This document shows, piece by piece, positions 4,971 through 55,100 of a stretch of 64,000 nucleotides of DNA. The notes below the pieces were generated by a model, which was not told the origin of the DNA, made no database searches, and saw only the letters and a list, made by a program, of their open reading frames with translations. Every line of letters starts with the position of its first letter. The stretch's first letter is position 1. The translations under genes and the position numbers were made by a program. The DNA comes from Dillenia suffruticosa. Taxonomy: Eukaryota > Streptophyta > Magnoliopsida > Dilleniales > Dilleniaceae. The stretch lies in NCBI GenBank assembly GCA_033439265.1, contig JAVTVX010000009.1, positions 13,171,109 to 13,235,108 of the forward strand, given 5' to 3'.

Positions 4971-5016
4971 ACACTTAACCCCCTAAGAAATTTTGTTCTC
5001 AAAATTTAAAAGAAAA

Positions 5017-17576: not shown

Positions 17577-20081
17577 TGTCACGCCCCGAACCGGGATCGT
17601 AAGCAGCCGCCCGTTACCCTGGATGCCGGCTGTATTTTTTTACAGAAAATCGGGCAGAATCTCCCCATATATCGGAGGTTTCCCATATTAAAATAAACCT
17701 GTTACCTGTCCAAAATGGGCCATCCCGGTCTCAAAATGCATATATTATCCTCAACAACAAATCAGATCATCCTACTGCACAATCCAGGGCAACGCAAGGC
17801 TAACAAACAATTCTCCACAGTCCTAACCACAGACCTCTACTTCCATGCCCCCATCAAAGGCATGGACAGCCGCCAGTCGCCCCTCCTGTGATTTAGAGAA
17901 GGCACCGAGCGATCCTAGAGGACACTTCTAAGACATGACACATTCCCAAATATAGACGCAATGAAAGAGAAATGCCTCAATGCAATGTCATGCAGTGACA
18001 TGAGAGTTTCACAAATTAAATATTCATATTTATACAGTCATCCCAGAATTTTAAAAATGGTCATCTATAGATCTCAAAATACATATATATCACCAATACA
18101 AATTTTGCAGCGGAAATACACAATGACTCCTCAAATTCAGGCCTGATCTCCCAAAGATACTGAGCGTCCTAAAAGCGACACTCCTTGTCAAATACTATCT
18201 CTGAAACAAAAGGGAAATGAGGGGTGAGTACTCGGGAAAGAATACTCCGTGAGTAAGTGGGTCAATGCAATCGTCAAATATAGAGTGTGAAACTGGAGTG
18301 TCAAAACATAAGTATATAAATCATATTTCAAATCATCATGCTCTTCATTTCAACAATATATCATTTCAAGCATTTTCAAGTCAAATATGCATCCAAAGTA
18401 CCATCATTTAAAATCATAGAGCTGCCCCCTTTCGGGTTCAACCTGGCTAGTACCGTGTCGATAATCAAATCACGACAACTCGTGGGATACCCCAGGCCTA
18501 GGCATATCCGGACGCCACCAAAGCGTCTCTCACGGTGTCCTTCGTAGCTACGGAACAATACAATCCAAAGCCCTCAAGGCCAAAACCAATATCATATCAA
18601 AATGTGCCGAAATCAGGTTCATAAACCAATGCAACATATAGCATAAAATGACACATTATACTTTTCAACCACATGGATGCATAATTTCATAATTCAATAC
18701 AGTTTTTGGACACTCCAACGGTTCACAAAAGTCAATTTTAAAATCAGTCAAAACATTTCCAACATACGACAAATCATGCTCATTATCAAAATGTTGTAAA
18801 ACAGGATTTACATATTAAATAAAAACATTGAAGTAAATCCCACTCACAGATTTTGGGGAAGGTAGCACACTCCCCAATAACACCAAAATACACAAAACAA
18901 GGCGCCCCTCAATCGAGTCACCAAGAAAGCCAACCTAATCAAGTCATCACGATTTTCATCAATTTCTGACTATTCCAGGGTTTATCGTTTTTCTTAATTT
19001 CGTACGAACCCTAAATTCCTCAATTTATAAACAAATCAACTAATGCTACCTAATTTGACAAAGTTTATCCAAAGATTGAAGAGATTTCGTTTCTCTCACC
19101 TAGGGTTTCTCGGATCTCAGATCTAGCTTTCGTTCGCCCGTTGGTTTGGTCTAAAACTTGAATATTTCCAAATTTCAAATATATTAGAAACAACTAAATT
19201 TCTAACACCAAACCCTAGAACTTCAACCAAATATAGTCGTTACCTGCAGTACAGAAGATGCAGGTGAGCTCTCGAAGGGGAACGCCGGTCGCGGGCTCGC
19301 GGGCCGTCACGGGCTTGCGGGCTGGCCGCTGGTGGCTCGCAGGCTCTCAACCCGGCTTGCTGGCCGTAGCGGGCTTCGCGGGTTGCAGTGGGCTGCGGCT
19401 GGACTGGGCCTTGGGCCGCTGGTGGGCTGGCCCACTCACGGGCTAGGGCTCGCGCTGAGTCGCGAGCTGGGTCTCGTGCTGGCTCGCGAGCTGGGTCGCG
19501 CGCTGGCTCGCTCTGGGTCACGAGCTGGCTCGTGCTGGGTCGCGCTGGAGCGCGCTGGGATGCGTTGGGGCGCGCTGGTGCTCGCGCTGGGGCGCGCAAG
19601 TGCGAGCTGGTGCAGGGACTGCACAGGGGCGCGTAGGGGCTCGTGCTATGGTGTGCTCGAGCGATCGCGTGCTGACGTGAGGGAGGGTCGCGCGGAGATG
19701 ATCGCGCGGCTGTGCTCGCGCTCGTGCTGGGGGATCACGCAGAGGAGAGAATCGTGCTACAGTCGCGCGCTCGCTGAGGATTGGAGATCGCGCTGCAGTC
19801 GCGCGCTCGCAGAGGATTGGAGCAGCGATGGCCACGGCGCACTCGTGGGAGGAAGATCGTGCGGCTGATTCGGGCGGTCGCTCGCGGCGGAGGATGGTAG
19901 CAGAAGAGAGAGGCGCGGCGGCGGGGGATCGGGAGAAGAGAGAAGAAAAAGGGAGAGAAGAAGAGGGAGAGAGAGAGAGAAGAGAAGAGAGGGGGAAAGA
20001 GAGAGAGAGTGAGAGAGGGGAGAAAATTGGGCTTTAAGCCCTAATTTTTATTTTTCCCTTTTTTTTTAATTGGGTATTACA
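17577..20081 (-). repeat. 3' LTR of gypsy element 3
   Basis: About 2.5 kb, TG..CA. Reading on + it opens TGTCACGCCCCGAACC and closes GGGTATTACA. It contains a GC-rich block (about 19258-19900) with CGCGAGCTGGGT-type repeats and a GA-rich run (about 19960-20030), probably leader sequence near the transcription start. The partner LTR is 25476-28232. The two align along nearly their whole length with few substitutions but several indels. Confidence 0.9.
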
Positions 20082-20128
20082 TTTTCTAACCCCCTAAAAA
20101 CAAGTCTCGTCCTCGAGACTAAAAGAAA

Positions 20129-23100
20129 CTATACAGGGAAAAGTTGAGGGTGCTGTCTTCTCATGGCTTCCTCAGGCTCCCAGGTCTGTTCCTCGACCTG
20201 TTCGCTCCTCCACAAAACTCTAACAAGAGGAATCTCTTTGCTCCGTAGCTTTCTGACCTGTCGATCCAAAATAGTCACGGGCTGGATAGGTAAGCTCAAG
20301 TCCTCTCGAAGCTCAACTAGCGGAGCCTCTAAAATGTGTGAGGGATCTGGCTGATATCTCCTAAGTACTGAGACATGAAATACATCGTGAATACGCGATA
20401 GGTTTGCTGGCAGCTCCAATTTATATGCTACACTTCCGACCCTGTCAAGGATACGGAAGGGCACAATATACCTGGGACTCAATTTCCCTCGCTGCCCAAA
20501 TCGAATGACTCCCTTCAAGGGAGATATCTTTAAGAATACCATGTCTCCCACAGTAAACTCTAGAGGTCGCCGCCTACGATCTGCATAGGATTTCTGTCTA
20601 TCCTGGGCGGCTTTCATCCGTGTACGGAAAATCCTCACTTTCTCCTTCGTCTCCTCTACCAGCTCAACATTGGTGAGTCGTCGCTCACCAACCTCATCCC
20701 AGCACAACAGGGTACGACACTTCCTCCCATACAATGCCTCGTAAGGTGGCATGCCAATGCTCGCCTGATAGCTATTATTATAGGCGAATTCCACCAACGG
20801 AATATATCGATCCCAACTCCCCCGGAAATCCATAACACATGCCCTAAGCATGTCCTCTAAAGTCTGAATAGTTCTCTCTGACTGACCATCCGTCTAGGGG
20901 TGATACGCTGTGCTGAAATTCAGTCTAGTACCCAAAGCCTCCTGCAGACTGGGCAAAAAACGGGATGTAAATCTGGGGTCTCGATCTGATACTATAGACA
21001 CTGGAACCCCATGCAGCCTCACGATCATATCAATATAGAGGCGTGCCAACCTTTCAAGCGAGTAATCACTCCTAATCGGGATGAAATGTGCAGACTTAGT
21101 AAGTCGGTCAACTATCACCCAAATAGCATCATGCTGTGCCGAAATCCGCGGTAATCCCACTATAAAATCCATCGTAATATGCTCCCACTTCCACTCAGGA
21201 GTGGGAAGGGGCTGCAATGTGCCAGCTGGACGCTGGTGCTCAGCCTTCACCTGCTGACATACAAGGCAACGAGTAATGAATTCTGCAATTTCCCGTTTCA
21301 TACCCGACCACCAATAACTGTCTCTGATGGTGCGGTACATTTTAGTACTGCCGGGATGTAAAGCATAAGCAGATGAATGGGCCTCCTCAAGAATAGCCCT
21401 GCGGAGGTCACTATCTGCCGGTACACATACTCGATCTCGAAAAACCAACAGTCCATCCTTGCGAACTCTAAAGTCGTCAATATCACCTCTGCTGGCTTTC
21501 TCATAAATACCTCGGAGCTCTTCATCACTCTGCTGAAGCTCCCTAATACGATCGAGCAAACTCGGCCGAACCTCAAATCTGGCTAGTATAGCTCCCTGAT
21601 CATCACTCGCCAACCTGACTCCCAAAGCTCGGAGTCCCAATAAACATGAGAGATAAGTACTCTCGGTAGTCTGAGAAGAGGAAGATGACTTCCGACTCAA
21701 GGCATCAGCCACCACATTAGCCTTGCCCGGATGATAATCAATAATGAGGTCATAATCCTTTAGCAGCTCTAACCATCTCCGCTGCCTCAAATTCAGCTCC
21801 CTCTGAGTGAATAGATACTTTAGACTTTTGTGATCTGTAAACACTTTGTATGTGACCCCATATAAATAGTGGCACCATATTTTTAGCGCAAAGACTATGG
21901 CCGCCAACTCCAAATCGTGCGTAGGATAATTCACCTCATGCTTCTTTAGCTGTCGCGAAGCATAGGCGATAACTCTACCATCCTGCATCAATACACAACC
22001 CAATCCCTGCCTGCTGGCGTCACTGTACACCACATACTCTCGACTACTCGTGGGAAGGGCTAGAATCGGAGCGGACGTCAATCGCTGTTTGAGCTCCTGA
22101 AAGCTCACCTCACAACGATCATCCCATACAAACTTTACACCTTTTCGCGTCAATCTAGATAACGGAGCAGCAATTCGAGAAAAGTCCTCTACAAATCTGC
22201 GGTAATACCCGGCTAGACCAAGAAAACTCCTGATTTCTGATACTGTCTGTGGCTGCTCCCATCTCAATATAGCCTCAACTTTCTGCGGATCAACAAAGAT
22301 ACCCTCCGCAGAAACTACATGGCCAAGAAAACCAATCTGCCGCAACCAAAATTCACACTTGGTGAACTTGGCATAAAGCTGTCCCTCACGAAGAGTCTGC
22401 AAAATCACCCTAAGGTGCTGAGCATGCTCATCATCACTCCGCGAGTAGACTAGGATATCATCAATAAAAACAATGACGAACCGATCCAAATAATCGTGAA
22501 AAATTCGGTTCATTAGGTCCATAAATGCGGCAGGGGCATTAGTCCGCCCAAACGACATGACCAAAAACTCATAATGTCCGTATCGGGTGCGGAAAGCCGT
22601 CTTAGGCACATTCTCGGCCCTAATCCGCAGTTGATGGTAACCCGACCGGAGATCTATCTTCGAGAATACTCTGGCACCCTGTAATTGATCAAAGAGATCA
22701 TCAATACGTGGTAGTGGGTACCGATTTTTAACGGTAACTTTGTTCAGCTGTCTATAATCTACACATGGCCGAAATGTGCCGTCTTTCTTTTTCACAAACA
22801 ACACCGGTGCACCCCACGGAGACGTGCTAGGACGGATAAACCCCTTATCCAGCAACTCTTGCAGCTGGACCTTGAGCTCTCTCAGCTCAACCGACGCCAT
22901 CCTGTATGGCGGCATAGAGATAGGGTAGTCCCCGGAGCTAAATCGATCTCAAAGTCAAACTCCCGAACAGGTGGTAGTCCGGGCAGCTCCTCGGGGAAAA
23001 CATCAGGAAAGTCCTGTACCACTGGGACATCCTCCAGTCTCGGTCCCTGAGCAGTGGTGTCAATGATATGAGCCAGGTAAGTCGCACATCCGCGGCGAAT

Positions 23101-23510
23101 CATGCGTCTGGCCTCCAAAACTGAAATGACACAGCGGGGTAAAACCCGCCTCTCGCCCTCAAAAATCAACACTGGCTGATCGGGTTTTCGAAACTCCATC
23201 TGCTTCTTAAAGCAGTCAACTGAAACCCGATGAATATGTAGCCAGTCCATCCCCAAGATGGCATCAAAATCAGTCATAGCGAGAGGGATTAGATCTGCCT
23301 TCAGCACTGTATCCCCAACTTTGATCTCACATTCTCTATACACTATGTCGCGCACAATCTGCTCACCCAAAGGAGTGATGACCAATATCTCCTCGTCCAA
23401 AGGTGAGAGTGGTCTGTCAGAGTGTCGGGAGAATTTATCGCTCACATACGAATAATTAGACCCCGTGTCAATAAGGATACGAGTATCTATTCCGAAAATG
23501 GGTAGAGTAC
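20129..23510 (-). pseudogene. pol of gypsy element 3 (two lesions)
   Basis: The aspartic protease (DTRILIDTGSNYSYVS, DFDAILGMDWL) lies at 23510-22920. RT ([27 protein letters not shown]), RNase H ([25 protein letters not shown]) and integrase (zinc finger [17 protein letters not shown]; core [19 protein letters not shown]) occupy 22915-20894. The integrase C-terminus and a chromodomain-like WRSEQVEEQTWEPEEAM segment occupy 20851-20129. A one-base loss near 22917 and one nonsense change near 20896 break an otherwise open polyprotein. Polyprotein processing, cDNA synthesis and integration are the family roles. Confidence 0.9.
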
Positions 23511-23756
23511 CTATCATTTGCACAAATACACATAAACTTAGAATAATTTCAAACCTGATATGTATATATATATGTCAAAATAGTTGAGCCTCTAGGGCTT
23601 CTACAACCTCGATGTACAAAGATGTCAGAGAGGTATCATGTCGACAAAAGGGAACACAACTCAAAATACCTATACGACTGATACAATGCTGACATCCTCA
23701 AAAGAAGTGGAAATACGAATAAAGATCCTATTCTACAGGATCAGAAGGAGGAGTAC
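23511..23756 (-). other. Putative gag-protease intron of element 3 (246 nt)
   Basis: Minus strand: exon ..AATCCCGACATCATCATGG, then GTACTCC from 23756. The gap ends AAATGATAG at 23511 and is followed by GTACTCTACCC. Joined, it reads NPDIIMG-TLPIFGIDTRILIDTG in frame. Unspliced, gag ends at a stop 9 codons into the gap. Confidence 0.65.
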
Positions 23757-25188
23757 CCATGATGATGTCGGGATTCGCCTGGGCGTCCTCATGCGTCATG
23801 GCATAAACCCGGGCCTGAGCCCTAGGCTGCTGTCGTGCCTGAGTCTGCACTGTGTTACTCCCAGTGGTCACCCTGGGAGTAGAAGCTGCTGGCCGAACAG
23901 GCTGCCCTTGCTGTCCCATACGAAGAGTACTAGTGCGGCTCAGTGAACTCTGTGCTCCGAGTCCTAACTCAGGGCAAAAACTCCTAATATGCCCCGGCTT
24001 CCCACAGTGGAAGCAAGTGACCGTCACTGAACAAGCTCCGCTTGGATGGGACTGATTGCACCTGCGGCAATAAGGGTGCCGCTGAGTAGTAAACTGTGCA
24101 GGGCAAGTCGGTGCGGGCTGTCTAAACCCCTGGGAGTACTGTCCCGGTCCCAGCTCAGGAAATCCAGATCCAAATCCGCCTCTGTACGAACTGGATCCCC
24201 TGCCTCTCTTGGAATTCTTCGCAAAATGAGAGTTCTCCTTCTTTCTCTTCTGCTCTCTGTTCTCTTTCTGCCTAGTCTCAGTGCGGACCAAAGCCTCCGC
24301 GCGGTGAGCAGAGTCTATCACCTCGGCCAGTGTAAACTGTGGAGTAACAGTCATATACCTCTTTATGCTGAGACTAAGACCGTCCTCAAACTTGAAGCGC
24401 AAATACTGAGGTGTGGCCAGATCTGGTACAAATGCGGCAAGTCTCCGCATGTCTGCCTCATACTCCGAGACAGATCTGGATCCCTGTGTAAGCCGTCCCA
24501 ACTCTGACCTCATCCGGTCCTGCTGGTAGAGTGGGAAAAATCTGCGGTCAAACTCCCGAAGGAAGTCGTCCCACCGCAGTGGCTCTATTGCCTCATCAGT
24601 AAGGGTCTCCCACCATGAGAGGGTCTCTCCCTCTAATAATCGCTCTGCCACTTTCAGGCAGAGCTCCTCTCCAATCCCTAGATCGGTCAGAATCCTGCAG
24701 GTGCGGTGATCCAATGCTTGGCTACCGTAGCATCACCAAGCCCTGCAAAATCTGTGCACCCTAGCTGACGGGCCTCCTTAACCAACTGAGTCAGCTCATG
24801 TACCCGTCTAAGAATAGCCGATGTGGCCTCACTCGGCTCGGACAAAGTAGAAGGACCGGCCACCGGCGGTGGAACCGATGCAGTAGGAACTGGCGCCGCT
24901 GCAGGTGCAGGCGCCGCTGTAGGAGGTGGTGGGGGCGGAATCTGAACCCCATGCGAAGCGTACCACTCATACACCTGCCTAAAGGCGTCGAGTGTGGGTA
25001 CAGGAGTCTCAGCCTAAGTAGCTGGCTGAGTAGGTGCCGGTGGTGGCACGCGAGTCGAGGTACGATCCTCCGGCTCGTCTAAGTCCTCTCGTACTCGTGG
25101 GGTCTCGGGTGCCCGAGGTGCATCTGGCACTAACAGACCCTCAAGCGATGCGAATCTAGTACCTCTCTTTCCACGTCTAGGTGGCATA
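23757..25188 (-). pseudogene. gag of gypsy element 3
   Basis: It starts at ATG 25188 (MPPRRGKRGTRFASLEG), followed by a proline/alanine-rich region. A TAG interrupts near 25016. The frame then runs MYEWYASHGVQIPPPPPP.. to the WITAPAGF region near 24690, where a frameshift leads into the retrotransposon gag domain (LSWWETL, WDDFLREFDRRFFPLYQQDR, FKFEDGL) at 24714-24200. A CCHC zinc knuckle (CFHCGKPGHIRSFC) lies near 24010. It ends MTHEDAQANPDIIMG at the splice-like junction. Confidence 0.85.
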
Positions 25189-25475
25189 ATTCTGCAAGAG
25201 AAATATGCTTATTATCATAAAAAGAATAGGCACGGTTCAAGAATTTTGAACTAATCATAGCATGGCTACCCTCACAAAAGAATGAAATTCTTAGTTCAAT
25301 AGGAGAAGAATATAGCAAGTTAGGTTAGATACAACCGTATCTAACCCCCTAAAATAGATGAACTCATATGCCTATGACCATGCACTGGGACTTCATGACT
25401 GTATGAAACTCTCATGCATTGAGAACTTTAAAAACCAACATATTCGGGAATATTTCCAAGACTCTCATGCATTGA
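25189..25475 (-). other. Leader of element 3 with disturbed LTR junction
   Basis: No canonical tRNA primer-binding site is visible next to the 5' LTR. The 16-base string ACTCTCATGCATTGAG occurs at 25408-25423 and again at 25461-25476, the latter exactly at the point where LTR homology begins. A perfect 10-bp stem with a 4-base loop (GGTTAGATAC, AACC, GTATCTAACC) lies at 25323-25346. The terminal 25 bases of the LTR present at 17577-17601 are absent here. Confidence 0.6.
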
Positions 25476-28232
25476 GCAGCCGCCCGTTACCCTGGATGCC
25501 GGCTGTATTTTTTTACAAAAAATCGGGCAGAACCTCCCCATATATCGGAGGTTTCCCATATTAAAATAAACCTGTTACCTGTCCAAAAGGGGCCATCCCG
25601 GCCTCAAAATGCATATATTATCCACAACAACAAATCAGATCATCCTAGTACACAATCCAGGGCAACGCAAGGCTAATAAACAATTCTCCACAGTCCTAAC
25701 CACAGACCTCTACTGCCATGCCCCCATCAAAGGCATGGACAGCCGCCAGTCGCTCCTCCTGTGATTTAGAGGAGGCACCGAGCGATCCTAGAGAACACTT
25801 CTAAGACATGACACATTCCCAAATATAGACGCAATGAAAGAGAAATGCCTCAATGCAATGTCATGCAGTGACATGAGAGTTCCACAAATTAAATATCCAT
25901 ATTTATACAGTCATCCCAGAATTTTAAAAATGGTCATCTATAGACCTCAAAATACATATATATCGCCAATACAAATTTTGCAACGGAAATACACAATGAC
26001 TCCTCAAATTCAGGCCTGATCTCCCAAAGATACTGAGCGTCCTAAAAGCGACACTCCTTGTCAAATACTATCTCTGAAACAAAAGGGAAATGAGGGGTGA
26101 GTACTCGGGAAAGAATACTCCGTGAGTGAGTGGGTCAATGCAATCGTCAAATATAGAGTGTGAAACTGGAGTGTCAAAACATAAGTATATAAATCATATT
26201 TCAAATCATCATGCTCTTCATTTCAACAATATATCATTTCAAGCATTTTCAAGTCAAATATGCATCCAAAGTACCATCATTTAAAATCATAGAGCCACCA
26301 GCCGAAAATGTCCCGGCAGAAGTCTATCGCGACCTATGACAGGCGCACCGGGGATATTATATGCAAATTTCTTTAAAGTGCTCTCTACCCCGGCGTTGGC
26401 GACGAACCTCGTCCAGGTGCTCGACTTGGAGAGGACATCCAATCCAAATCCAAATCCAAATCCTCCCCCTTTAGGATTCAACCTGGCTAGTACCGTGTCG
26501 ATAATCAAATCACGACAACTCGTGGGATACCCCAGGCCTAGGCATATCCGGACGCCACCAAAGCGTCTCTTACGGTGTCCTTCGTAGCTTCGGAACAATA
26601 CAATCCAAAGCCCTCAAGGCCAAAACCAATATCATACAAAATGTGCCGAAATCAGGTTCATAAACCAATGCAACATATAGCATAAAATGACACATTATAC
26701 TTTTCAACCACATGGATGCATAATTTCATAATTCAATACAGTTATTTCATAATTCAATACAGTTTTTGGACACTCCAACGGTTCACAAAAGTCAATTTTA
26801 AAATCAGTCAAAACATTTCCAACATACGACAAATCATGCTCATTATCAAAATGTTGTAAAACATGATTTACATATTAAACAAAAGCATTGAAGTAAATCC
26901 CACTTACAGATTTTGGGGAAGGTAGCACACTCCCCAATAACACCAAAATACGCAAAACAAGGCGCCCCTCAATCGAGTCACCAAGAAAGCCTACCTAATC
27001 AAGTCATCACGATTTTCATCAATTTCCGACTATTCCAGGGTTTATCGTTTTTCTTAATTTCGTACGAACCCTAAATTCCTCAATTTATAAACAAATCAAC
27101 TAATGCTACCTAATTTGACAAAGTTTATCCAAAGATTGAAGAGATTTCGTTTCTCTCACCTAGGGTTTCTCGGATCTCGGATCTAGCTTTCGTTCGCCCG
27201 TTGGTTTGGTCTAAAACCTGAATATTTCCAAATTTCAAATATATTAGAACCAACTAAATTTCTAACACCAAACCCTAGAATTTCAACCAAATATAGTCGC
27301 TACCTGCAGTACAGAAGATGCAGGTGAGCTCTCGAAGGGGAACGCCGGTCGCGGGCTCGCGGGCCGTCACGGGCTCGCGGGCTGGCCGCTGGTGCCTCGC
27401 AGGCTTTCAACCCGGCTTGCTGGCCGCAGCGGGCTTCGCGGGTTGCAGTGGGCCGCGGCTGGACTGAGCCTTGGGCCGCTGGTGGGCTGGCCCACTCACG
27501 GGCTAGGGCTCGCGCTGGCTCGCGAGCTGGGTCGCGCGCTGGCTCGCGAGCTGGGTCGCGCGCTGGCTCGCGAGCTGGGTCGCGCGCTGGCTCGCGAGCT
27601 GGGTCGCGCGCTGGCTCACTCTGGGTCGCGAGCTGGCTCGTGCTGGGTCACGCTGGAGTGCGCTGGGATGCGCTAGGGCGCGCTGGGGCGCGTAAGTGCG
27701 AGCTGGTGTAGGGACCGCACAGGGGCGAGCAGGGGCTCGTGCTACGGTGTGCTCGAGCGATCGCGTGCTCACGTGAGGGAGGGTCGCGCTGCAGCGCTCG
27801 TGCGCTCACGAGGAAGACTGCACGGTGGCGCTAGCGCTCGCGCGGAGATGATCGCGCGGCTGTGCTCGCGCTCGTGCTGGGGGATCACGCAGCGGAGAGA
27901 ATCGTGCTACAGTCGCGCGCTCGCTGAGGATTGGAGATCGCGCTGCAGTCGCGCGCTCGCAGAGGATTGGAGCAGCGATGGCCACGGCGCACTCGTGGGA
28001 GGAAGATCGTGCGGCTGATTCGGGCGGTCGCTCGCGGCGGAGGATGGCAGCAAAAGAGAGAGGCGCGGCGGCGGGGGATCGGGAGAAGAGAGAAGAAAAA
28101 GGGAGAGAAGAAGAGGGAGAGAGAGAGAGAAGAGAAGAGAGGGGGAAAGAGAGAGAGAGAGAGAGGGGAGAAAATTGGGCTTTAAGTCCTAATTTTTATT
28201 TTTCCCTTTTTTTTTTTAATTTGGGTATTACA
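25476..28232 (-). repeat. 5' LTR of gypsy element 3
   Basis: Homologous to 17577-20081 but about 250 bases longer. Extra material: about 170 bases at 26294-26463, ending in AATCCA hexamer repeats; a 20-bp tandem duplication at about 26725-26765; extra copies of a 24-bp GC-rich unit at 27515-27610; and about 57 bases at 27789-27845. It ends TATTACA at 28232, followed by the GAACA duplicate. Confidence 0.9.
27515..27610 (+). repeat. Four perfect 24-bp GC-rich tandem units
   Basis: The unit runs from CTGGCTCGCGAG to CTGGGTCGCGCG and is repeated at 27515, 27539, 27563 and 27587, with a decayed fifth copy after them. The partner LTR has only about two recognisable copies near 19480-19510, so the array changed size after or during the last replication cycle. 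It accounts for the arginine/alanine/glycine-rich open frames here. Confidence 0.85.
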
Positions 28233-35277: not shown

Positions 35278-36003
35278 ACCTGAGTGTCATTTTAATGCCA
35301 ACAATATATCAACATCTAATATGAGAAACAAAAGAATATTATAGGAACAACTGAACTAATAAAGAAGCTATATGAATTCAATGAGAAAAGACAAGTGTGG
35401 AATAGAATGAGATAAAAATCACAACTCTGAGAATACTGGATCCAATCCAACTCTAACCACAGTTTCAAATAGCTACAGGTCATGGGACATGGGACATAGG
35501 GCAAGAGATAAAAGTTCTATTAAAAAATAATGATCAATCAAAAGTGCCTGCAATGTAACACTTCCAAGCGTGCATAACAAAGAGTCACAGTATCTGTTTA
35601 TAGAAAGGCTCGTCCAGCTCCAAACTACTTCTCAATACCTCTGTCTCCATATGATTATATCATTTCATTAGCACAAAAATCAAACATAAAAAATTGTGCA
35701 ATATCAGTGTCTAGAACAAAAGCACATACCCCTATTGGAACTTTTGTTTCTTTGGAGTATATCTTTGTCTAGAACTCCTATGTGTGTTCGTAGAAAGGAG
35801 AGAGATGGTTGACATATCCCCAAAAAGGGCTGGGAACGGCTTTCGAGCTTGTCGTTGGAGTATATTTTATCATGCATATATAGTTTTCCCAAGTAATATA
35901 AGCACAAATGCTTCTCAAAGTTAGAGGAGAAAACAACACAATAAGTAACAAAACTAGATACATTCCGGAAAACCCAAGGCATCGACGACGAGCCCAAAGG
36001 ATG

Positions 36004-36009
36004 GAGAGA

Positions 36010-36055
<46 letters not shown>
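36004..36055 (+). repeat. (GA)n microsatellite in the STR 5' region
   Basis: GA repeats with one GGG interruption, 215-266 bases upstream of the STR ATG, so in its promoter or 5' UTR. GA/CT tracts at this position are common in plant core promoters (general knowledge). Length variation could matter for expression; that is inference. Confidence 0.85.
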
Positions 36056-36057
<2 letters not shown>

Positions 36058-36269
36058 TGCAATTGGTATTTGGTTTGCCGCCCAGTTTTTTGCTCTCTCC
36101 CTCTTTGTCCACCGGCTACAATAAGTTGATTTCTTTTATTTTAACCACCGTCTCGTCCTTGTCTTCACCAACATCCTATCTCTCCTTTATACTCATCAAA
36201 ACCTCAACCTCACCTCTAGAAAAAGCTGCAATATCAGTCTATCAGCCAAAAAAAGCACAGCAGCATTCA

Positions 36270-38975
36270 ATGGCAAGGCTTAGTCGGACTAACACTAACA
36301 AAAGCCTAGAGAGTCTAATGGACATGGACAAATCAGCCCAAGTTGCGAAAAATGCTGTTCCAAATCAACCTAGGAAGATGATTCCTGGCCATGGACTTGA
36401 ATTCGGCAACTTATCTTACAGTGTCATGAAGAAACAGAAGAAGGATGGAGTGTGGATCACTAAGGAGGCTTATCTACTTAATGACATCTCTGGACAGGCT
36501 ATAAGAGGAGAAGTCATGGCCATCATGGGGCCTAGTGGAGCTGGAAAATCTACGTTTCTTGATGCTTTGGCAGGTAGGATTGCACAAGGGAGTCTTGAAG
36601 GGTCAGTCAGGATCGATGGAAAGCCAGTTAGTTCTCTCTTAATCCCTTCCCCTACGGTATTCAACATGTACATAGTTATCAGCAAGAGACTTCTTGTGCA
36701 GGTGACAACAAGCTACATGAAAATGGTGTCATCTTATGTCATGCAAGATGACCAACTCTTCCCAATGTTGACGGTCTTCGAGACTTTCATGTTCGCAGCC
36801 GAGGTTAGGCTTTCCCCTTCACTTTCCAAGTCTGAAAAGAAACAAAGAGTCTTTGAACTTCTAGATCAACTTGGACTACAGGTAAAGTCATCATTCCTGC
36901 TCCCAAGCCCGCCCTCCCTCCCTCCCTCTCTCACATGATGGCTTTATGGCCGGCTTTACAGAGTGCAACACATACCTATATTGGGGATGAAGGGAGGACA
37001 GGAGTGTCTGGTGGGGAGCGACGTAGGGTGTCCATTGGAATTGACATAATTCACAAGCCATCTCTGCTGTTTCTTGATGAACCTACATCGGGTTTGGACT
37101 CCACAAGTGCTTACAGTGTTGTGGAAAAGGTTAAAGAAATAGCAAGAAACGGTAGCATCGTCCTCATGACCATCCACCAGCCTTCTTACAGAATCCAGAT
37201 GCTCCTAGACAGGATCACTGTCCTTGCAAGGTAAACTATTCAACTGATATCATCCTTTGCCATCAGCATAAATTTGACACCCAAGGGAAGCAAGGGTCTT
37301 TCCCTAGCTAACTAGTCAAATATTTTGTTGCTACAGAGGAAGGCTACTATACATGGGAACTCCTGGTACTCTTCCTAACCACCTCTCTGGTTTTGGAAGG
37401 CCAGTTCCTGATGGAGAAAATAACCTCGAGTACCTTCTTGATGTGATCAAAGAGTACGATGAATCGACCCTTGGGCTTGACCCTCTGGTCCTTTATCAAC
37501 GAGATGGCATTAAACCTGACGCAGCTGCCAGGACTCCGATTCCAAAAACACCAAAGACACCTAAAACTCTTCATGGACACTACAAAAAGACCCTGTCGTC
37601 CAAGCATGCCATCAGCCTCCATAGCCAACAGTTCTCAACCGGACCAAATACGCCTCGAGCAACTTCAGGCCAATTTGAGTATGATGATGAAGATGATGAG
37701 GACAAATTTGACAACTCTCTTCAGCGCAAGACAATTCACACTCCTATGCAGATACATAGCGGAACGCATAACCTACGGTTGGCTTCTCAGTTCTATAAAG
37801 ATTTCTCTGTTTGGGTCTACCATGGTGTAACAGGCACTCCTCGCCGTGCACCATCGTGGACTCCTGCTCGAACTCCAGGAGCTACACCTGCAAAAACACC
37901 CAGTACAATTGGGAGGAGTTACGCCTCGAAAAGATATTCAACTCCTCACAGAAACCATGTTCCTGCCAAAACTCCTGTGTTTAGCCCATCTCACGATGGT
38001 TCATATATTCCTTCGTATGAAGAGTTTGAGATGGAAGTGCTTGATGAGCCGGAGCATAGAGCCAAGTTTGCAAATCCATGGCTCCGTGAAGTTGCAGTCC
38101 TCTCATGGCGCACTGCTCTTAATGTGGTTCGCACACCAGAGCTTTTTCTCTCCCGTGAGATTGTCCTGATGGTTATGGCTCTCATTCTGTCCTCCCTCTT
38201 CAAAAACCTTCATGGGAATAATTTCAAAACCATCAACCGGCTTCTGAATTTCTACATCTTTGCTGTATGCCTAGTTTTCTTCTCCTCAAATGATGCTGTT
38301 CCCACATTCATCCAAGAACGTTTCATCTTCATTAGAGAGACTTCCCACAATGCTTATCGAGCTTCATCATATGTCATCTCCTCCCTCCTTGTCTACCTCC
38401 CTTTCTTTGCCATTCAAGGCTTCACATTTGCAGTCATCACCAAATATATCCTCATGCTCAACAGCAGTCTCTTCTACTTCTGGCTCATTCTCTACGCATC
38501 TCTCATAACCACAAACGCTTATGTGATGCTTGTGAGTGCTATGGTTCCAAGCTACATCACTGGTTATGCTGTGGTGATCGCTACAACAGCTCTATTTTTC
38601 CTAACCTGTGGTTTCTTCCTGAAGCGATCTCAGATACCCAAATATTGGAGATGGCTCCATTACATTTCTGCAATCAAATATCCATTTGAGGCATTACTTA
38701 CAAATGAATTTCAAGGAAAAACCTGCTACAACGGTAAGACCTCAGACCTATCACCTGGTCCTCTTGGTTCGGTCAGGATTAGTGCACTGCACAATTCCTC
38801 CATTGAACATCTGAAACCTCCATGCATGTTGATAGGGCAAGACATTCTCTACACCATGGATATTACAATGGACAACATCTGGTCTGACGTCCTCATTCTA
38901 CTTGCCTGGGGAGTTCTATACCGCCTTCTCTTTTACGTTGTCTTGAGATTCTACTCCAAGAATGAGAGGAAATGA
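36270..38975 (+). CDS. STR: STR, ABCG half-size transporter required for arbuscule development
   Basis: Exons 36270-36626, 36702-36881, 36962-37230 and 37337-38975 give 814 residues, the usual STR size. The start [16 protein letters not shown] matches STR N-termini. Nucleotide-binding domain: Walker [10 protein letters not shown] (87-95), Q-loop MQDDQ (133-137), signature VSGGE (194-198), Walker B LLFLDEP (214-220), H-loop His251. A long linker rich in Thr-Pro repeats (about 335-350 and 432-460) is typical of STR. The ABC2 membrane domain follows from about 520 and the protein ends FYSKNERK. All motifs are intact. From family knowledge, STR pairs with STR2 in the periarbuscular membrane and supports lipid delivery to arbuscular mycorrhizal fungi; the gene is lost in non-host plants. 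Introns are 75, 80 and 106 nt. Intron 1 is stop-free and in frame, so retention would insert 25 residues. Expression is expected only in colonised root cells. Confidence 0.93.
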
Positions 38976-43100: not shown

Positions 43101-46100
43101 TTGGATATGTCGTAGTAGTGGTAGATCTTCGAGTCCTACAGTGACTTCAAGAGAAGTATATCTCATTTTACTAACTTGAATATTTCCATCACCATCGATA
43201 ATTCCAGCTAGCCACTCACAGAAGGATTTAATTTGCATCCTTTATAGTGCCTAATCAATCTGAGCCATAGAGCACACCGTCTCTCCTAATAGATCCAAGC
43301 TGCAGTAGGCAGGACTGGTAGATGATGGCATTAATTGATGTCCATAGCCTTTAAGTTCACGATGTAGAACAGACTGTAGGATAGGATAGTCTTTTTAATA
43401 TGACATGTTTGAGAATTTGATAGAACAATAGTCTTCCGATACTCCCCTCTTCCTTTTTCCTATTCTTTATCTCAAGCCATTTTTCATTTATCATGAGCTT
43501 ACCCTCTCTCTCTGGATCTAAACCCCCAACCTTTCCTGTCTTCTCCCTCTGGATTCTTTGTGTGTTCTACCCATCTTTCGTAGTTTCTTCAATCTCTTCT
43601 ACTGTTTCTGGTTGCTAAACCTGAGCTTTGATTCTGTGTCAATTACAGTCTTCTTCTGTAGAAAACATAGATCACTTTATATGAACCTTATAGAAATGCC
43701 AAAAGAATGTGAAGCATGTGCCACACTTTTCAAATTCAATCAAGGAGTTTATAAATCAGTATTGACGGTGATGTTGATGCCAGTTTGTGGTGCTAATTTG
43801 GATAAGAAAAGAGCTTCATTCTAGCTAATACGCTTTATCTGATGTTACTAGTAACTCGAGAATTAAGAACTAGTCTTCCCATTCATCTAATTGAGAAGTA
43901 GGGTTGACAAAGTTCACATTTTACAAACTCTTGATTATTCATCGTAACAATTAAATTGGCTTCAACTTTTCCATTCAACCTTTTTCTTGGCCAGGGGGAA
44001 GTTTTTTTTTGGGGGGGTGATGATTCTGGAAAGCAGAATGAGATTAAAAGCCAACATATTCATGGATAGTGCTCAACCAGGTCATCAAAATCATGGAGAA
44101 CATGATAAATATTACCTAACATCTTCACTTAGGACATGTTTGGTACAAGGGGAAAGGATAGTGTAGTGAGGTAAACTTTTGTAGATTATTGTGGGTGCTA
44201 TGCATGGTTGAGTCAGAAAAGGAAGAATTCCATGTTGATGGTGTTGATAGGAACTTGCATAAAAATTTGATAACAGTTTTGAAGATGGGCTGTTGCAGAA
44301 AGGAAATCAGAGATCATGTGGATAAAAAAAATTAAATGTCTTGTTGAGATTTCGAATGAAGAGATCACTTTAGAAGACTCAACCTTGTTCTCATAAGTTT
44401 CTGAGAGATAAGCCTCATTTTTAAGTAATAGCTGTCCATCAGGGCGGGGGTTTTGATGGTCTAAGCACCATGATACCTTTTCTTAAGCCTTAAGGTGGGT
44501 ATAGACTCTCTTTCTCTCTCTTACTTCTATATCACCTCAAAGATCTGATTGTCAACATGAAACTAAGAGTTCCCTAATTTTGTCTTGCTTTGAAGTAATC
44601 AATTCAATCTTGGCAGCCTACACACGCTTATTGGCACCATATTGATTCCCATAACCTTAATGTCATTACAGAATTGAGTTCTTTGGTTTATCTGCCCATA
44701 GTTATTTTCCTAGAAGGCAAGAGGGATAATCAAGAGGGATACATCCTTAACAAATTAGACTGGAGCTTGACTGTGCCTAGTGCTGCCCTCAACCAAGACG
44801 ACCCCGCTTTTCTTATCTTTATACTAAGAGGAAGAGTCCTAATAAGGTGTGGGGAGGAAATAGATCCCAATGTGCCAGGGGAATATAAGGTATCAAATCC
44901 AAGAAATTAGTTGCATTGTCATGGGTGTTACTAAGGGAAAAGGAGAAAGGTAATAGAAACCATTCTATGAATCTCCAACGATATTGTCATCACACAAGAA
45001 TCTAAGTTAAAAGAGCTAGATGATAATTTTGTTAACTCCACTTGTCAATCCACTGCCAATTTCTTCCTAATAGTAGTTCTTCGCACAAAATCATCATTAT
45101 CTAGAATGTCAAAACCTTGTCATCTCAATAGCCTTCATGGGCAATTTTCCCTATCGTTTCTTCGAGGACTTCTTAGTCTTGGTTTACGTTCCGGTATGGT
45201 ATGTAGCTCTTGAGAGAAGATGTACAGGATTTTTGATTTGTGCTCACCGAATCTGTGCATAGATGAGGGTTTAATGTTGCTAGATTCTTATTGGAGAAGC
45301 TTAATAGGTCTAGGATTACCGATACTATTGCCTCTATTCTCTTTACTAGGGATTGCAAGTTACAAGATACTGAACTTTTCGATGCCCAACATACTCGTAT
45401 GAGCCCTAGTACACGATTTAGTCAATGGATACTCTGCAGGGAATTCCTCTCTTCCCTTGCTAGAGTTTTCTCTCTCTTAGACCTTAGGTTTGACAGCCAA
45501 GATCTTGTTCCTTAACAAGTTTCCTACCGCACTTCTTTTATGAGAATTAGACTTGCCTTTTTATATATCACACTCTCTTTAAATAAAAGAAATTAGGATT
45601 TACAATAAAATAAAATTCTTACAAAAAAACAAATACTAAAATTATTCCTAATATGACGATTCTATTTTAAAAAAGATAGCTATCAACTAAAATTAGAAAA
45701 CTATTAATTTTTCTAAAATATTTTCTTTTTATTAGTTTCCAAATATCCTCCTATAAGATCTCTTTTCAATGATATACACGTTCTAGAATAATCTTTTTTA
45801 ATTATATCCAAGCGCATATCATTACTCCCCTCTTGAACAAAGAGCTTGTCCTCAAACTTGAATTCAGGAAGGGTCTTCTCCCAAAAAGCCTCCACCCTCA
45901 TCCTCTTCTTTGGACTTTAACATACCATGCTTAGCCTCTCAAAGTTCCATTGTTCCAGAAATTCTTGCCCAACAACTCTACCTGCTGCAACCTCTTGTTT
46001 TGCAGTCACTTTCAATCTTGTAATTTCTTCTCCGACAGCAGCAATATCCAGCATAAGTCCTTTAACACTTTCAATTGTCACTCTCTCCTTTTCTTCAACT

Positions 46101-49100
46101 TCCTCTATATGCAGCTTCCTTTGCCCGAGCCCCTTTACCCGAGCCTCGACTTGCTCTTTAAGTGAAGTTGACCCTGCCTTGAGAACGGTTGTCTTTCCTC
46201 TGCCCATCTGGCAATTAAAAACAAAAGCATCTATAATAGGCACATTTATGGCATTTCCATGCTTATCTACTCCCCTGCCAAAAGCATCCAAACGTAGAGA
46301 GGCCTTGAATGGCTTCTGTTGGATAGCTAGGTCAGTTGTTAATTGACCTGGAAATATATTTATAAAAGGCACAAATTCAGAATCATGGTGAAATTCTATC
46401 TTGGCAGCTTCAATGTTGGGAATATTTGTAAGACCAACCAGACCAGTCATGCCACCCATAGGCAGCTTCACGGAAGCCACAGTGGCAAAGTAGTTGCATT
46501 TGGTTCCACCTGAATAGAAGCAGTAACAGTAGCAGTAGATGGAACAGGCAGAGGTAATTTGCAGGTACCAGGGAAGGGGGTTTTGTCCCCTCCTTGGGTC
46601 CTACAGAGGGGTTGCCATCTGAACTTGTGCTAGCACCCTTATTCGACAAAGGAATTTTCTTTAGCTTCTTTGCCAAGTCCTTCAGCATTTGTAAAGCTTT
46701 TTTAGCTTTTGCTAAAGCATCAGGAGATAGGCTTCCACTTATGCAGGCAGTTGAAGACGATCTATCAGTGCTCGATTTTCCAAGATCCTCATGAGATCTG
46801 GTAATACTAACACCCTTATCTTCATTTGCGGTAGTAATGGAAGACACCTTCGGTCACACAATCTAATGCCATATTGAGTGGCTTTGCTGTGCCTCTAAAG
46901 TCATGGCACTTTTTGGGGATAGCGGTTCCTCCTTCTAGCAGACTACTCCTTTCTTCCCCTTGGTTTGCAAGGGTGTGGCTGTTGCTCCACACCTGTTGGA
47001 CCTTACTGCTCCCCTACAACTCTCGCCGAAGCAGCTCCATCTGCAAGATTAGTGTTGTCTGTTGTTGCTGCTGCAACTTCTGGAGTTTCTCCACTGTAGC
47101 TAGTTGTTGCTCCATTCCCTGCTCGTATTCCCTCATGAATCTCCCCATCCAACTAAACCATTTTGCAAAATTTTCCATGACGGCCGGCTTTGATACCAAA
47201 TTGGTATGAGCCCTAGTACATGATCTAATCAATAAATATTCTACAGGGAATTCCTCACTTCCCTTACTAGAGTTTTTCGTCTCTTAGAACTTAGGTTCGA
47301 CAGTCAAGAACTTGTGCCCTAAAAAATTTTCTACCACACTTTTTTTATAAGAATTAGATTTATCTATTTATTGATCACACCATCTTTAAATAGAGAAAAC
47401 TAGGGTTTACAATAAAATAAAATTTTTACTAAAAGCAAATCTTTAAAATTATTTCTAATATAAAAAATTCATAAAATTAACGTAACTACTATTTTTAAAA
47501 AAAGATAGGTATCGACTAAAAAATGAAACTACTATTTTTCTAAAATATTTTCTTTTTACTCGTTTCTAAATATCCTACTCGAAGATTTTCTAGAATAATT
47601 TTTTCCAATAGTATCCAAATGCATATCACATACTTGGAGTGGGGAGTGAAAGGCTACCTCCCGTAACAATCAGACTCTAACGTGCAGGAGTCTTGTTTCC
47701 CAAATCTCAGATATGAAACCCTCACAGGAACCACTTTAGACCACTATTCTATATTTTTAGAATATAATGATACCAGTTGGGGCCCTACTCCTTTTATATT
47801 TGAGAACATGTGGCTTTCTCCTAGAAGTCTCACAAAGGTTGTGGAAGATTTTTGAAGAAATACCCATGTAAAAGCATGGGAGGGTTTCAAGTATTCATGA
47901 GGTAATTGAAAAGTCTCACGGAGGTTCTAAAAGCTTGGAACAAAGAGATTTAGTTGATGTTAGCAAGAAGAAGTGTTATCCTTTTAAGATTGATGAGCTA
48001 GATTAACCGGATGTTTTCTGCCCTTCTACCCATAAAAAGTCTTAGGAATGGTTTTGGGAGTTTCTTCTAAAGGACGAAATAAGTTTGCTTCAGAAGGCTC
48101 AAATGAAGTGGGTTTGATACGGAGATTGTGACTCGAGGCTTTTCCATTTGGTGTGCAATCGTAGAAAGCAAAAGAGTTTTATTAGAGAACTAGAGGATGA
48201 CGTGGGAAATGTTATTGCCAATCTTATCTTTTTGAGAACACCATTACTGATTTCCATTGAAATCTTTATGCTGAGGAGGATAGAGGTCGTCTTTGAGCAA
48301 CATTTTTATGGTAGGGTGCGTACTGAAGATGTTTTCCTTTCTCAATTTCGATTGTGGGTAACACTATTCTTTTTCTCAAAGAGGACAATGATGGTTTTCA
48401 AGATATAATCACCCTTCTAACATCTCTGAGAAAACTTTGGGGGTTCAGATCAATAGTGAACTTGTGAGCATAAATGTGTCCAATAGATCTTTTGCTTTGC
48501 AATCAATTATCAATTGAAAGACGAGGGATGGACTATTTCCTACTTAAGAGTTCCTTTGAGGGAGGGGAAGTCTGACAAATGTTCATTTTTGGGAAATCCA
48601 AGAACTGTACAGGAAGTAATTTTTCACCAAGTTGAGATTTCTTTTTCCCCCATACATGGAATATTGCCTTTGCCCTTGCAAACTTGCAATTCTTGAACCT
48701 TGTCCCACCATGCGAAACATAACCATGTAACCTTGTTGCCACCAATTTTACCTTTCAATTTTCAGGAGTACCTTGGTAACCAAAGAATTCCTTAACAACA
48801 CTAAGGTAATTAAGAAATTCTTCTGGTTGATGACAACCATAGAATTCTGGTAACTTCATTTTAATGCCATCCAGAGGTTGAAAATTCATAAAAATCAATC
48901 CACCTTTACTGGGTTTGATGATCCGCAAAAGGATTCACATTGTTGGAATCATCACCAACATAGCCATGACTTCAACCATGCTCATTGTGAACTTTGGTTG
49001 ATTAAGTTCTAGAGTAAGTAGTTCAACTTGCCTTCGAAGTGCCTGAATTCCTTCATCTCTTATTCCGCCCATCATTTGGTTTCTTTGACACCCTCTCCCT

Positions 49101-52100: not shown

Positions 52101-55100
52101 GAGTGATTAATTGCAGTTAGCGTCACTGGAAACCGGGTTTTCCAATTTTAAGACAAAATTCCTCCTAAAATCAAGACTAGGATAAAGAAAGAAAGGAAGT
52201 CAAGACGACCTGGTGGCAAACTCGTCGAGCGAGGAAGAACCGGCCCAAACACATGGGCACGTTAAGTATGTGCGCGATGAGGCACGTGAGCGTAGGAGCT
52301 GGCGTGTGAAGTTTACACACAAGAGAGACGCGTGAGCATCAAAGGTCAGTTTCGGGTCGGGTAGACCCGGATCTGCATCCCTACCCGTTTCTCGATCCGG
52401 GATGCAATTCGCGCACGTGCAGGCGCATGACCCCACGCGCTGCATGTTTGGTGCGTGTGCCGGCGCATAATCGGCGCGTGAGGCATTAGCAGGCTTTGCT
52501 GGAATATAATTTTTTATTTTTTTATGGTCCTATGCTATTAAATGTGACTTTTTATAAATTTTTGTGTATCGAATTCAAATCAAGATGGTAAGATGCAGTC
52601 TCAGGTTGCGGTGTATTATGTCCGTTGACTCATATGCTCGCTTTAAAGTCTATACTCAAGTCATTTAGAATTTGTTTGTTCAAATAGTGGACAAAATGTG
52701 AGAATAAATATCAATAAATCACTAAATTCTTTATTGCTGTAATGACAACTATCGTATTAGATTTCTGTAAGGGGGATAAACTGAACGGTAACAATTGCTA
52801 GATTTTACATTCAGTTTATTCTCGAGGAACAAGATTATATGAGATTTTGAAACACGAAATGGTTGATCCCGGCGAGGGTACAGCACCTCAGACTAGACGG
52901 GATAATGAGGTCTATCATGCGTGGAAAAAGATGGATAACCAACTTAAGACAATTCTTAGCAGTGATACAACATTTATAAATCTATGATGAAAATGCTATG
53001 GTGAAAATGCTAACTTATAAATTTATAACTTATAAGAAAATGGTTAATTATACAATAATACAATATTTGATACAAATGTCGAGTATGATCATCAGGTTGA
53101 GGAATACGGATAAGCCCATTTCGAATAAGTTTAAAGTATTGGGTATGATCCGATCTTTACCTGACTCATGGAAGATCATGAAAACCTATCTCACACATGA
53201 TGAGAATATTCATACTTTCACTTATGTGAATAGACACTGTGAGCTCGACGAGCGTCTAGAGATGAGTAGGCCATACACAAGTCATACTTATGCAACGAAG
53301 TCGAGTAAAAACTCCCGTGACACCAAACACGTAAGGCATAAACGTGAGAAGAAAACTCAAGATCTAGACAAAAAAAACCATCCGATAAATCCAACAATAA
53401 GGTACAAAAGCCCAGGAAGAATAAGTTTGATAAGACCAATGCGAAGTGCTACGCCCACGGTAGATTTGGTCATTTTGCACATGAGTGTGACAGATAAAAG
53501 TTATGTCTTTTTTCTTACGTGGTTTGAGTTTTGTCTCTCATCCACTGTGATACTTATTGATTTCTCTCATTTGCAGATTATAGACTCAGGAGTCACTGAC
53601 CACGTAACTCAAGACAGGAACACATACGCGGAGTTCCACTGAGTGAGTCCTCAGGCTAAAAGGATTTACGTGGGAAACAAAATATTTATCGTCGCAAGAG
53701 GAATTGACACTTGATTTTAGTATTTTGTTCAGATCGCCTAAAATATGCTTTGTTTATTGGAATCTTTATTGTTTCTATTAGTTATGACAACTTTTTAATT
53801 TGTTTCGGTTTTGTGAATGGACTTATGTATTGGATGCTATTTCTTTTAATAGTATTTCTTGTCATTTTTTTATTGTTTTTATATCTGATTGCGTAAATGA
53901 TGATGTGAATGCATGACATAGTAGACCTGGACCTATAGGGTAAGAAAGGATTAATCGATTAGCAGCTAATGGTCTATTAGGCCCACTACCCAAAGTCGAG
54001 TTGCCCATATGTGAATTGTGCCTAACCGACAAAGTTACGAAAAAACCATTTGACAAAGCAATAAGAGTTGGGACCTTATGAACATGAGAACCCGAAATAG
54101 AGCTATGTACTTTATTACCTTCATAAACGAATACACGCGTTTCAGTTACATCTATCTGATATCGCACAAATATGAGATATTGAAATATTTTAGGAAATTT
54201 ATTAACGAGATTGAGAATCAATTAGACTTAAAAATGAAAACTCTCGTAACCGATCGGAGGCGTAAATATTTGTCTGAATAATTTAGAGAGGTCTATTTCA
54301 AGAAGTGTAATACTAGACAGTTGACTATTCCTACTGCTCCTCAGCTCAATAAAGTAGCTGATAAGAGAAATAGGACTTTGTTGAAGATGGTAAAATCTAT
54401 GATGCGACAAACCAATTTGTCCATCTCCCATTGCAGAGATGCTTTATTGACTGCAACCTACGTTCTCAACCGTGTCCCATCAAAGTCCACAATTAGTACC
54501 CCATATGAGCTTTGGAGAGGGAGACAACCTAACCTTAGCCACTTGAGGTCATGGGGTTGTGTCACGTATATTTACGATTTCTCGCATCCATATAGCAAGT
54601 TAGACCCACTAGAAAAGAAATATATCTTTATAAGATACTCAGAATACTTCAAAGTGTATGTGTTCTTAGGTGAGCATACGGACAACACTGTCACTGAAAT
54701 TGAATCCTGTAATGCCACATTCCTTGAAAATGATTTCCCTAATAAATGTAAAATCAATCGGTGCTTTACTTTCTATAAGATGGATGAGGCTAATGGCTCA
54801 GCTGAGCCCGGCGACAATACCAAGAAACCATTACAGATCTTGGTTCTAACGAGAGCGATCCATCTAGAGGTAAAGAGATTCTCCCTCCTTATAGGATATC
54901 GAGGACACGTACTTAAACGTCACTTCCCAATTGAGGGTGAGGCCCTCATTGTGACCATCGAAGATGATGAGAAGTCTAAAACAGTCCAAGAGACTCTTGA
55001 GGGTTTTGCGAATGACCATTGGTTGAAAGTCTTGGATGAAGAGATAAAATCAATGACAATCAATAGGTCTGAGACCTAGTTGACTTGTCTGAGGGTAAAA

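Follow-up and report, generated by a model that had tools for sequence, protein, structure and literature searches.

How does a long terminal repeat (LTR) retrotransposon copy without replication enzymes come to carry pieces of several unrelated host genes? The question is raised by a stretch of 64,000 nucleotides from Dillenia suffruticosa (contig JAVTVX010000009.1, positions 13,171,109 to 13,235,108; the window), in which an LTR retrotransposon copy of 2,234 bp lies on the minus strand at 45395..47628, with ends exact to the base. We give a probability of about 0.84 to the reading that this copy is old and decayed and belongs to a non-autonomous LTR retrotransposon family, that the family has taken up fragments from six host genes at least, and probably seven, and that these were gathered stepwise, by capture of spliced mRNAs through template switching in reverse transcription followed by amplification. 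The copy is made up as follows, in window coordinates and with donor genes designated by their contigs (C).

45390..45394, no strand: left target-site duplication, CATAC
45395..45821, minus: 3' LTR, 427 bp
45822..45834, minus: polypurine tract (PPT) AAGAGGGGAGTAA, adjoining the 3' LTR
45822..45950, minus: 3' end region, from about 45917 on common to the fetched copies of every cargo type
45917..46600, minus: 227-codon open frame that runs through all three cargo segments, taken for a relic and not a gene
45951..46178, minus: coiled-coil cargo from an At3g49055-like gene (donor pair C24/C26), two exons joined by splicing
46187..46243, minus: paladin remnant, three pieces with 57 bp in all, which span a spliced 124-nt C17 intron and a 69-nt GT..AG gap
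46237..46880, minus: PRP3/RDM16 cargo, spliced parts of exons 2 and 3 (donor pair C34/C16)
46898..47201, minus: leader common to the family, with a short open frame beginning MENFAKWF
47187..47198, minus: primer-binding site (PBS) TGGTATCAAAGC, 3 nt past the 5' LTR
47202..47628, minus: 5' LTR, 427 bp
47629..47633, no strand: right target-site duplication, CATAC

The LTRs, the CATAC duplications, the Met-type PBS and the PPT had been described in the original prediction and were all confirmed. In the element's sense the 5' LTR starts with TGATATG and ends with CATACCA, and the 3' LTR ends with CATACGA; ends of the TG..CA type and a 5-bp target duplication are those of an LTR retrotransposon, as are a tRNA primer site beside the 5' LTR and a purine tract beside the 3' LTR. 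The PBS agrees in 11 of 12 bases with what we take to be the initiator-Met primer-binding site. The scanned frames of the window copy contain no gag or pol domain, and no reverse transcriptase or integrase of the Ty3/gypsy chromovirus lineage, in agreement with the earlier claim that the element lacks replication enzymes; this sets it apart from autonomous LTR retrotransposons, and dispersed copies with their own target duplications place it among the non-autonomous ones. With 2,234 bp and 427-bp LTRs it is larger than what we take to be the limits for terminal-repeat retrotransposons in miniature (TRIMs). The final codons of the 3' end region, before the PPT, may resemble the end of a Ty3/gypsy pol gene. 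The two LTRs are about 79.5% identical over 415 aligned sites, in an alignment that takes in a few flanking bases, with a Kimura two-parameter distance (K2P) of 0.243. At a substitution rate of 7e-9 per site per year the window insertion is about 17 million years old.

The origin of the cargo is seen by comparison with the genome (596 Mb, 37 contigs), which was searched for donors and relatives; positions along the element are numbered E from its 5' end, with E1 at 47628. PRP3 proteins match the element with expect values as good as 2e-64. Among the 25 plant proteins shown from the best 120 of 523 matches, the top two are from Dillenia turbinata, at 83% and 79% identity over the same 95 residues, and the other 23 reach at most 74% there. 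Two PRP3 genes are present in the genome itself (C34 and C16), each 82-95% identical, exon by exon, to a D. turbinata protein, which makes a close relationship of the plant to that species probable. Alignment of E749-1392 with the C34 gene (L061) gives exon 2 at 89% over 207 bp plus 26 bp at 92%, and exon 3 at 80% over 452 columns with gaps, the match ending about 27 bases inside exon 3. A donor intron of 197 bp, with GT and AG ends, is cleanly gone from the element. Several records name this donor RDM16 (RNA-directed DNA methylation 16).

The coiled-coil segment has its best match at 6e-16 in a database of 5.8 billion proteins, and 23 proteins match the stretch at values from 6e-16 to 2.5e-7, including 'uncharacterized protein At3g49055' and several called 'paramyosin'. 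E1451-1678 corresponds to two exons of the C24 gene (L062) at 86% and 90% identity, the 184-bp intron of the donor is absent, and the match ends one or two bases short of an exon end. The paladin segment is weak by itself, with a Pfam value of 2.5e-4 that falls below the family cut-off, and no paladin protein is among the 23 database matches just mentioned. Its three pieces of 16, 21 and 24 nt nevertheless match the paladin gene of the genome (C17) in order, at 94, 95 and 92% identity, and the last two flank a 124-nt intron of that gene which the window copy lacks. Other searches returned little: a first protein search gave no match to the 227-codon frame at an expect value of 0.01, probably because the query is so much shorter than the donor proteins; comparison of the cargo with solved structures brought up no donor and only matches that looked like chance or low complexity; and NCBIfam had no match for the cargo.

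A donor intron is thus absent from each of the PRP3, coiled-coil and paladin segments, which shows that the cargo came from spliced RNA, and the mRNA-level origin suggested earlier is borne out. The three donors, correctly named in the original prediction, are separate genes, all present in the same genome on different contigs, and not a single gene. Intronless exons of at least two unlinked host genes between LTRs are the arrangement of the maize element Bs1; the absence of introns and the presence of LTRs distinguish the element from Pack-MULEs and Helitrons.

Sister copies with other cargo or none, which the original prediction had envisaged, are numerous. An LTR search, in which 40 of 464 first-look candidates were scored, shows the LTR to be dispersed, the other matches listed being 76-82% identical to that of the window. 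Family internal sequence accompanies 17 of 29 other LTR loci (L025 has only a scrap, and L011 and L022 are one element); the remaining 12 are probably solo LTRs. The LTR pairs of 12 other copies have K2P values of 0.11-0.22, and target duplications are recognizable in nine copies with both ends among 11 examined (six perfect 5-bp duplications, two matching at 4/5 and one at 3/5). The leader peptide is found at no fewer than 110 places, window included, with 150 of 183 candidates scored. The longest leader frame seen, 369 codons, belongs to a copy at G000:C20:5883150-5884269 that has a coiled-coil piece downstream, and at positions 4169-5046 of the reverse complement of L060 there is an 878-bp copy with two LTRs and almost no internal sequence. 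Some short-type sisters measure 1,508-1,745 bp, and the sisters read extend to about 3.8 kb. Three cargo types are distinguished.

Type (a), PRP3 type: leader, PRP3, paladin remnant, coiled coil, 3' end (window copy and L003)
Type (b), long type: leader, long-ORF piece, zinc finger, SAC3/GANP, paladin, coiled coil, 3' end (L041 and relatives)
Type (c), short type: leader, long-ORF piece, piece taken for EF-Ts, 3' end (L055, L056, L058 and others)

After removal of rows that belong to the donor genes (PRP3, 13 of 54; coiled coil, 6 of 48; paladin, 6 of 17; SAC3, 6 of 20; EF-Ts, 8 of 16; long open reading frame (long-ORF), 2 of 105), the dispersed cargo pieces form 124 clusters, with the long-ORF piece at 83, the coiled coil at 39, PRP3 at 25, paladin at 11, SAC3 at nine and EF-Ts at eight; PRP3 and the coiled coil occur together at 19. 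The long-ORF piece derives from a gene pair (C17:6185414, C20:6825383) with open frames of 1691 and 1739 codons, one of which was read as DNA over 391 bases and is open, and its similarity to the donor ends at the same base in seven of nine cargo copies and within 8 bases of it in the other two. The SAC3 piece is firm (Pfam 1e-13 and 4e-8), with candidate donor genes at C1, C24 and C26. EF-Ts appears in a Pfam search of the genome as eight short dispersed pieces, each of which matches the domain's beginning, and LTR matches adjoin two of the eight; a direct scan of the L055 peptide gives a value of only 0.13. For the zinc-finger piece, genes at C29:17362713 and C37:7854921 are candidate donors (79% over 34 residues), and Pfam gave no match; the exon is presumably akin to those of JMJ/JmjC proteins. 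Many of the donors have a paralogue on a different contig (PRP3, C34/C16; coiled coil, C24/C26; EF-Ts, C12/C27; long-ORF, C17/C20; zinc finger, C29/C37), and these pairs look as they would after a whole-genome duplication.

A more complex relationship is seen among the paladin segments. The window copy has a 69-nt gap that runs GT..AG. In L041, of the long type, the paladin part is about 500 bp and extends from the end of one exon to the start of a fourth, with the second exon mostly kept minus about 99 nt, the third present, and two introns (about 1.25 kb and 3.8 kb) missing. A 310-nt gap of the long type (23513-23822) runs from GTGAGT to an authentic acceptor and is present, by exact pattern, in seven of 11 paladin-bearing copies. 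The donor stretch at the 99-nt gap of the sister copies is open coding sequence, so that exon is missing there; the gap runs GT..AG but is flanked by direct repeats, GAGAGGT, and for that reason says little on splicing. The PRP3 type keeps paladin sequence that is absent from the long type, and vice versa, so neither abridged form derives from the other. These comparisons point to an ancestor that would have carried a longer paladin piece than either form, and alternative splicing, of the paladin mRNA or of the element RNA, would explain the 69-nt and 310-nt gaps.

The joins give an indication of timing. The left join, the PRP3-paladin join and the 69-nt paladin gap are identical in the window copy and L003, and are therefore older than either insertion. 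The proposal of a single chimera from one event is not supported: the family is large, its cargo comes in several sets, and these joins recur in more than one copy. At the PRP3-to-paladin passage both donors contain TGCCTA, and the paladin remnant and the end of the PRP3 match overlap by a few shared bases. K2P values of 0.12-0.14 separate the PRP3 and coiled-coil parts from their donors, about half the value for the LTR pair, which reflects two branches; on these distances the two pieces were probably captured only a little before the window copy inserted.

A plausible scenario is that spliced host mRNAs were packaged along with the element RNA, and that a partner element, itself unseen, supplied a reverse transcriptase that switched between templates, which we infer would have happened inside a particle. 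Switching between co-packaged RNAs is a described route to such chimeras (PMC13317346). In the PRP3 line the enzyme would have moved from the leader to a PRP3 mRNA and on to the paladin segment of a cargo captured earlier, and the resulting PRP3-bearing form would then have multiplied. The host-gene pieces would in this way have been gathered stepwise, with the cargo a passenger and not a working gene. We also lean, with distinctly less confidence, towards a broader description in which the family is an LTR-borne exon collector that holds fragments of at least seven unlinked host genes, acquired by successive template switches and some from alternatively spliced mRNAs, and in which the leader and the 3' end stay constant while whole cargo blocks between them are exchanged; it would then do at the RNA level what Pack-MULEs and Helitrons do at the DNA level.

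Several observations count against this explanation. The comparison of introns at the level of donor DNA covers three of the captured genes, PRP3, the coiled coil and paladin; and absent introns prove an RNA step and not the place where the joins were formed. No gag-pol partner lies beside the 29 other LTR loci read, and the leader matches scored include no long frame beyond the 369 codons noted above. LTRs were seen only at the minority of the 124 clusters that were read as DNA, and L046 has none within the fetched 8 kb. Cargo is in the element's sense in the stretches compared, save in L042, where part of it is inverted.

Other routes to such a cargo can be envisaged. The chimera may first have been a host transcript, formed by read-through, trans-splicing or nested processed copies, and then taken up by an LTR element in one step, for example by read-through transcription. 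Splicing of the cargo, segment ends close to exon ends (as in the coiled coil) and the GT..AG paladin gaps are all in keeping with this, but the donors are on different contigs, the PRP3 match stops within an exon, and sisters with the same coiled coil have other upstream cargo, for which several events would be needed; we consider it unlikely. Slightly less likely again is uptake at the DNA level, by recombination or gene conversion with processed pseudogenes, with later deletions that mimic splicing. Deletions without GT..AG ends do occur (the 24-nt and 13-nt gaps in the PRP3 part), and the direct repeats around the 99-nt gap could be cited in its favour. However, at least five donor introns in three genes are exactly removed, the large paladin gap ends at an authentic acceptor in most paladin-bearing copies, and the dispersed PRP3 rows all fall inside residues 210-464 of 867, with no free processed copy that reaches beyond the captured part seen among them. 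The view that the LTR pair arose as an unrelated tandem duplication, with debris of host genes enclosed, would fit the lack of gag-pol in the window copy, but is given almost no weight in view of the PBS, the PPT, the target duplication and the sister copies with duplications of their own; the dispersed LTR matches led us to reject it as the source of the pair.

Template switching leaves the question of whether the product is a useful fused protein for which the family was kept, as claimed for Bs1. The three segments are in one sense, and the 227-codon frame crosses the PRP3-paladin and paladin-coiled-coil joins in the donors' own frames, as had been reported; the long type also stays in frame across its paladin gap. 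In the PRP3 part of the window copy, two frameshifts and a 24-nt deletion mean that the whole chimera is no longer open. Substitutions relative to the donors at codon positions 1/2/3 number 102/111/122 in the coiled coil (14 copies), 196/160/173 in paladin (11 copies) and 33/21/35 in PRP3 (2 copies), with no clear third-position excess in any of the three; the test is a coarse one, individual paladin blocks being uneven (one 84/75/38, another 65/30/68). The dispersed copies commonly contain stops and frameshifts. The fused protein that had been thought possible is thus unsupported and very improbable, and we read the 227-codon frame as what would be a relic of donor coding sequence together with a 1-in-9 coincidence at two joins.

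Elsewhere in the window, a Ty3/gypsy element on the minus strand (17602-28232) has gag and pol frames at 20129-24732, with reverse transcriptase, RNase H and integrase domains in 20894-22945, and long repeats of which 17602-18422 and 25475-26295 are 98% identical and 18425-20081 and 26465-28232 are 90% identical. An ABC transporter gene at 35958-38975 is of the half-size ABCG type by its layout (ATPase domain, then ABC-2 membrane domain), and a decayed copia-type element at 52980-55079 has gag-like and SH3-like retroviral polymerase domains. Peptides from the flanks of the cargo-bearing copy (44971-45389 and 47634-48302) resemble the endonuclease region of a long interspersed element (LINE), which suggested an insertion into an old LINE; Pfam did not bear this out.

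Bs1 and GmaRetroS15 are true precedents for an LTR element with pieces of three genes. Maize Bs1 carries pieces of three host genes, from exons, between LTRs (PMC13317346, PMC4717578), as the window copy does, and is described as forming a transcribed and translated chimeric gene; the Dillenia family, likened to it by description and not by sequence, differs in having other donors, many copies, several sets of cargo drawn from six or more host genes, and no coding constraint seen. GmaRetroS15 and other soybean TRIMs, of 1,172-1,449 bp, have 5-bp duplications and several copies, with exon-only fragments of three host genes in one element (PMC4717578). The window copy resembles them as a small non-autonomous LTR element with such duplications and fragments, but is larger, and its family has more donors and several cargo sets. 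A maize survey lists 425 LTR elements with host fragments from at least 189 captures and, in the sections available, reports none with fragments of more than one standard nuclear gene (PMC2774510); host fragments lie inside intact LTR elements there as here. Surveys of rice and sorghum give 672 and 1,343 captured genes. Pack-MULEs and gene-carrying Helitrons form families that carry and mix many host gene fragments (PMC13317346), and Pack-MULEs capture introns as well as exons (PMC4717578); these are DNA transposons, whereas the Dillenia cargo is spliced and lies between LTRs. No description of the Dillenia family was found in the open-access literature searched. The family is known in kind and unusual in degree, with more host donors, copies and cargo sets than the precedents compared.

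Two of the donors bear on silencing, PRP3 by its name and the zinc-finger gene by its presumed kinship to JmjC proteins, and any action of element small RNAs on them is hypothetical. Gene prediction in this plant may count many such fragments as genes or exons. Multi-gene captures by LTR elements are known from few cases and their mechanism is poorly understood; here the donors, the joins and the differing sister copies are together in one genome, and the order of capture, the short sequences shared at joins and the role of alternative splicing can therefore be read directly.

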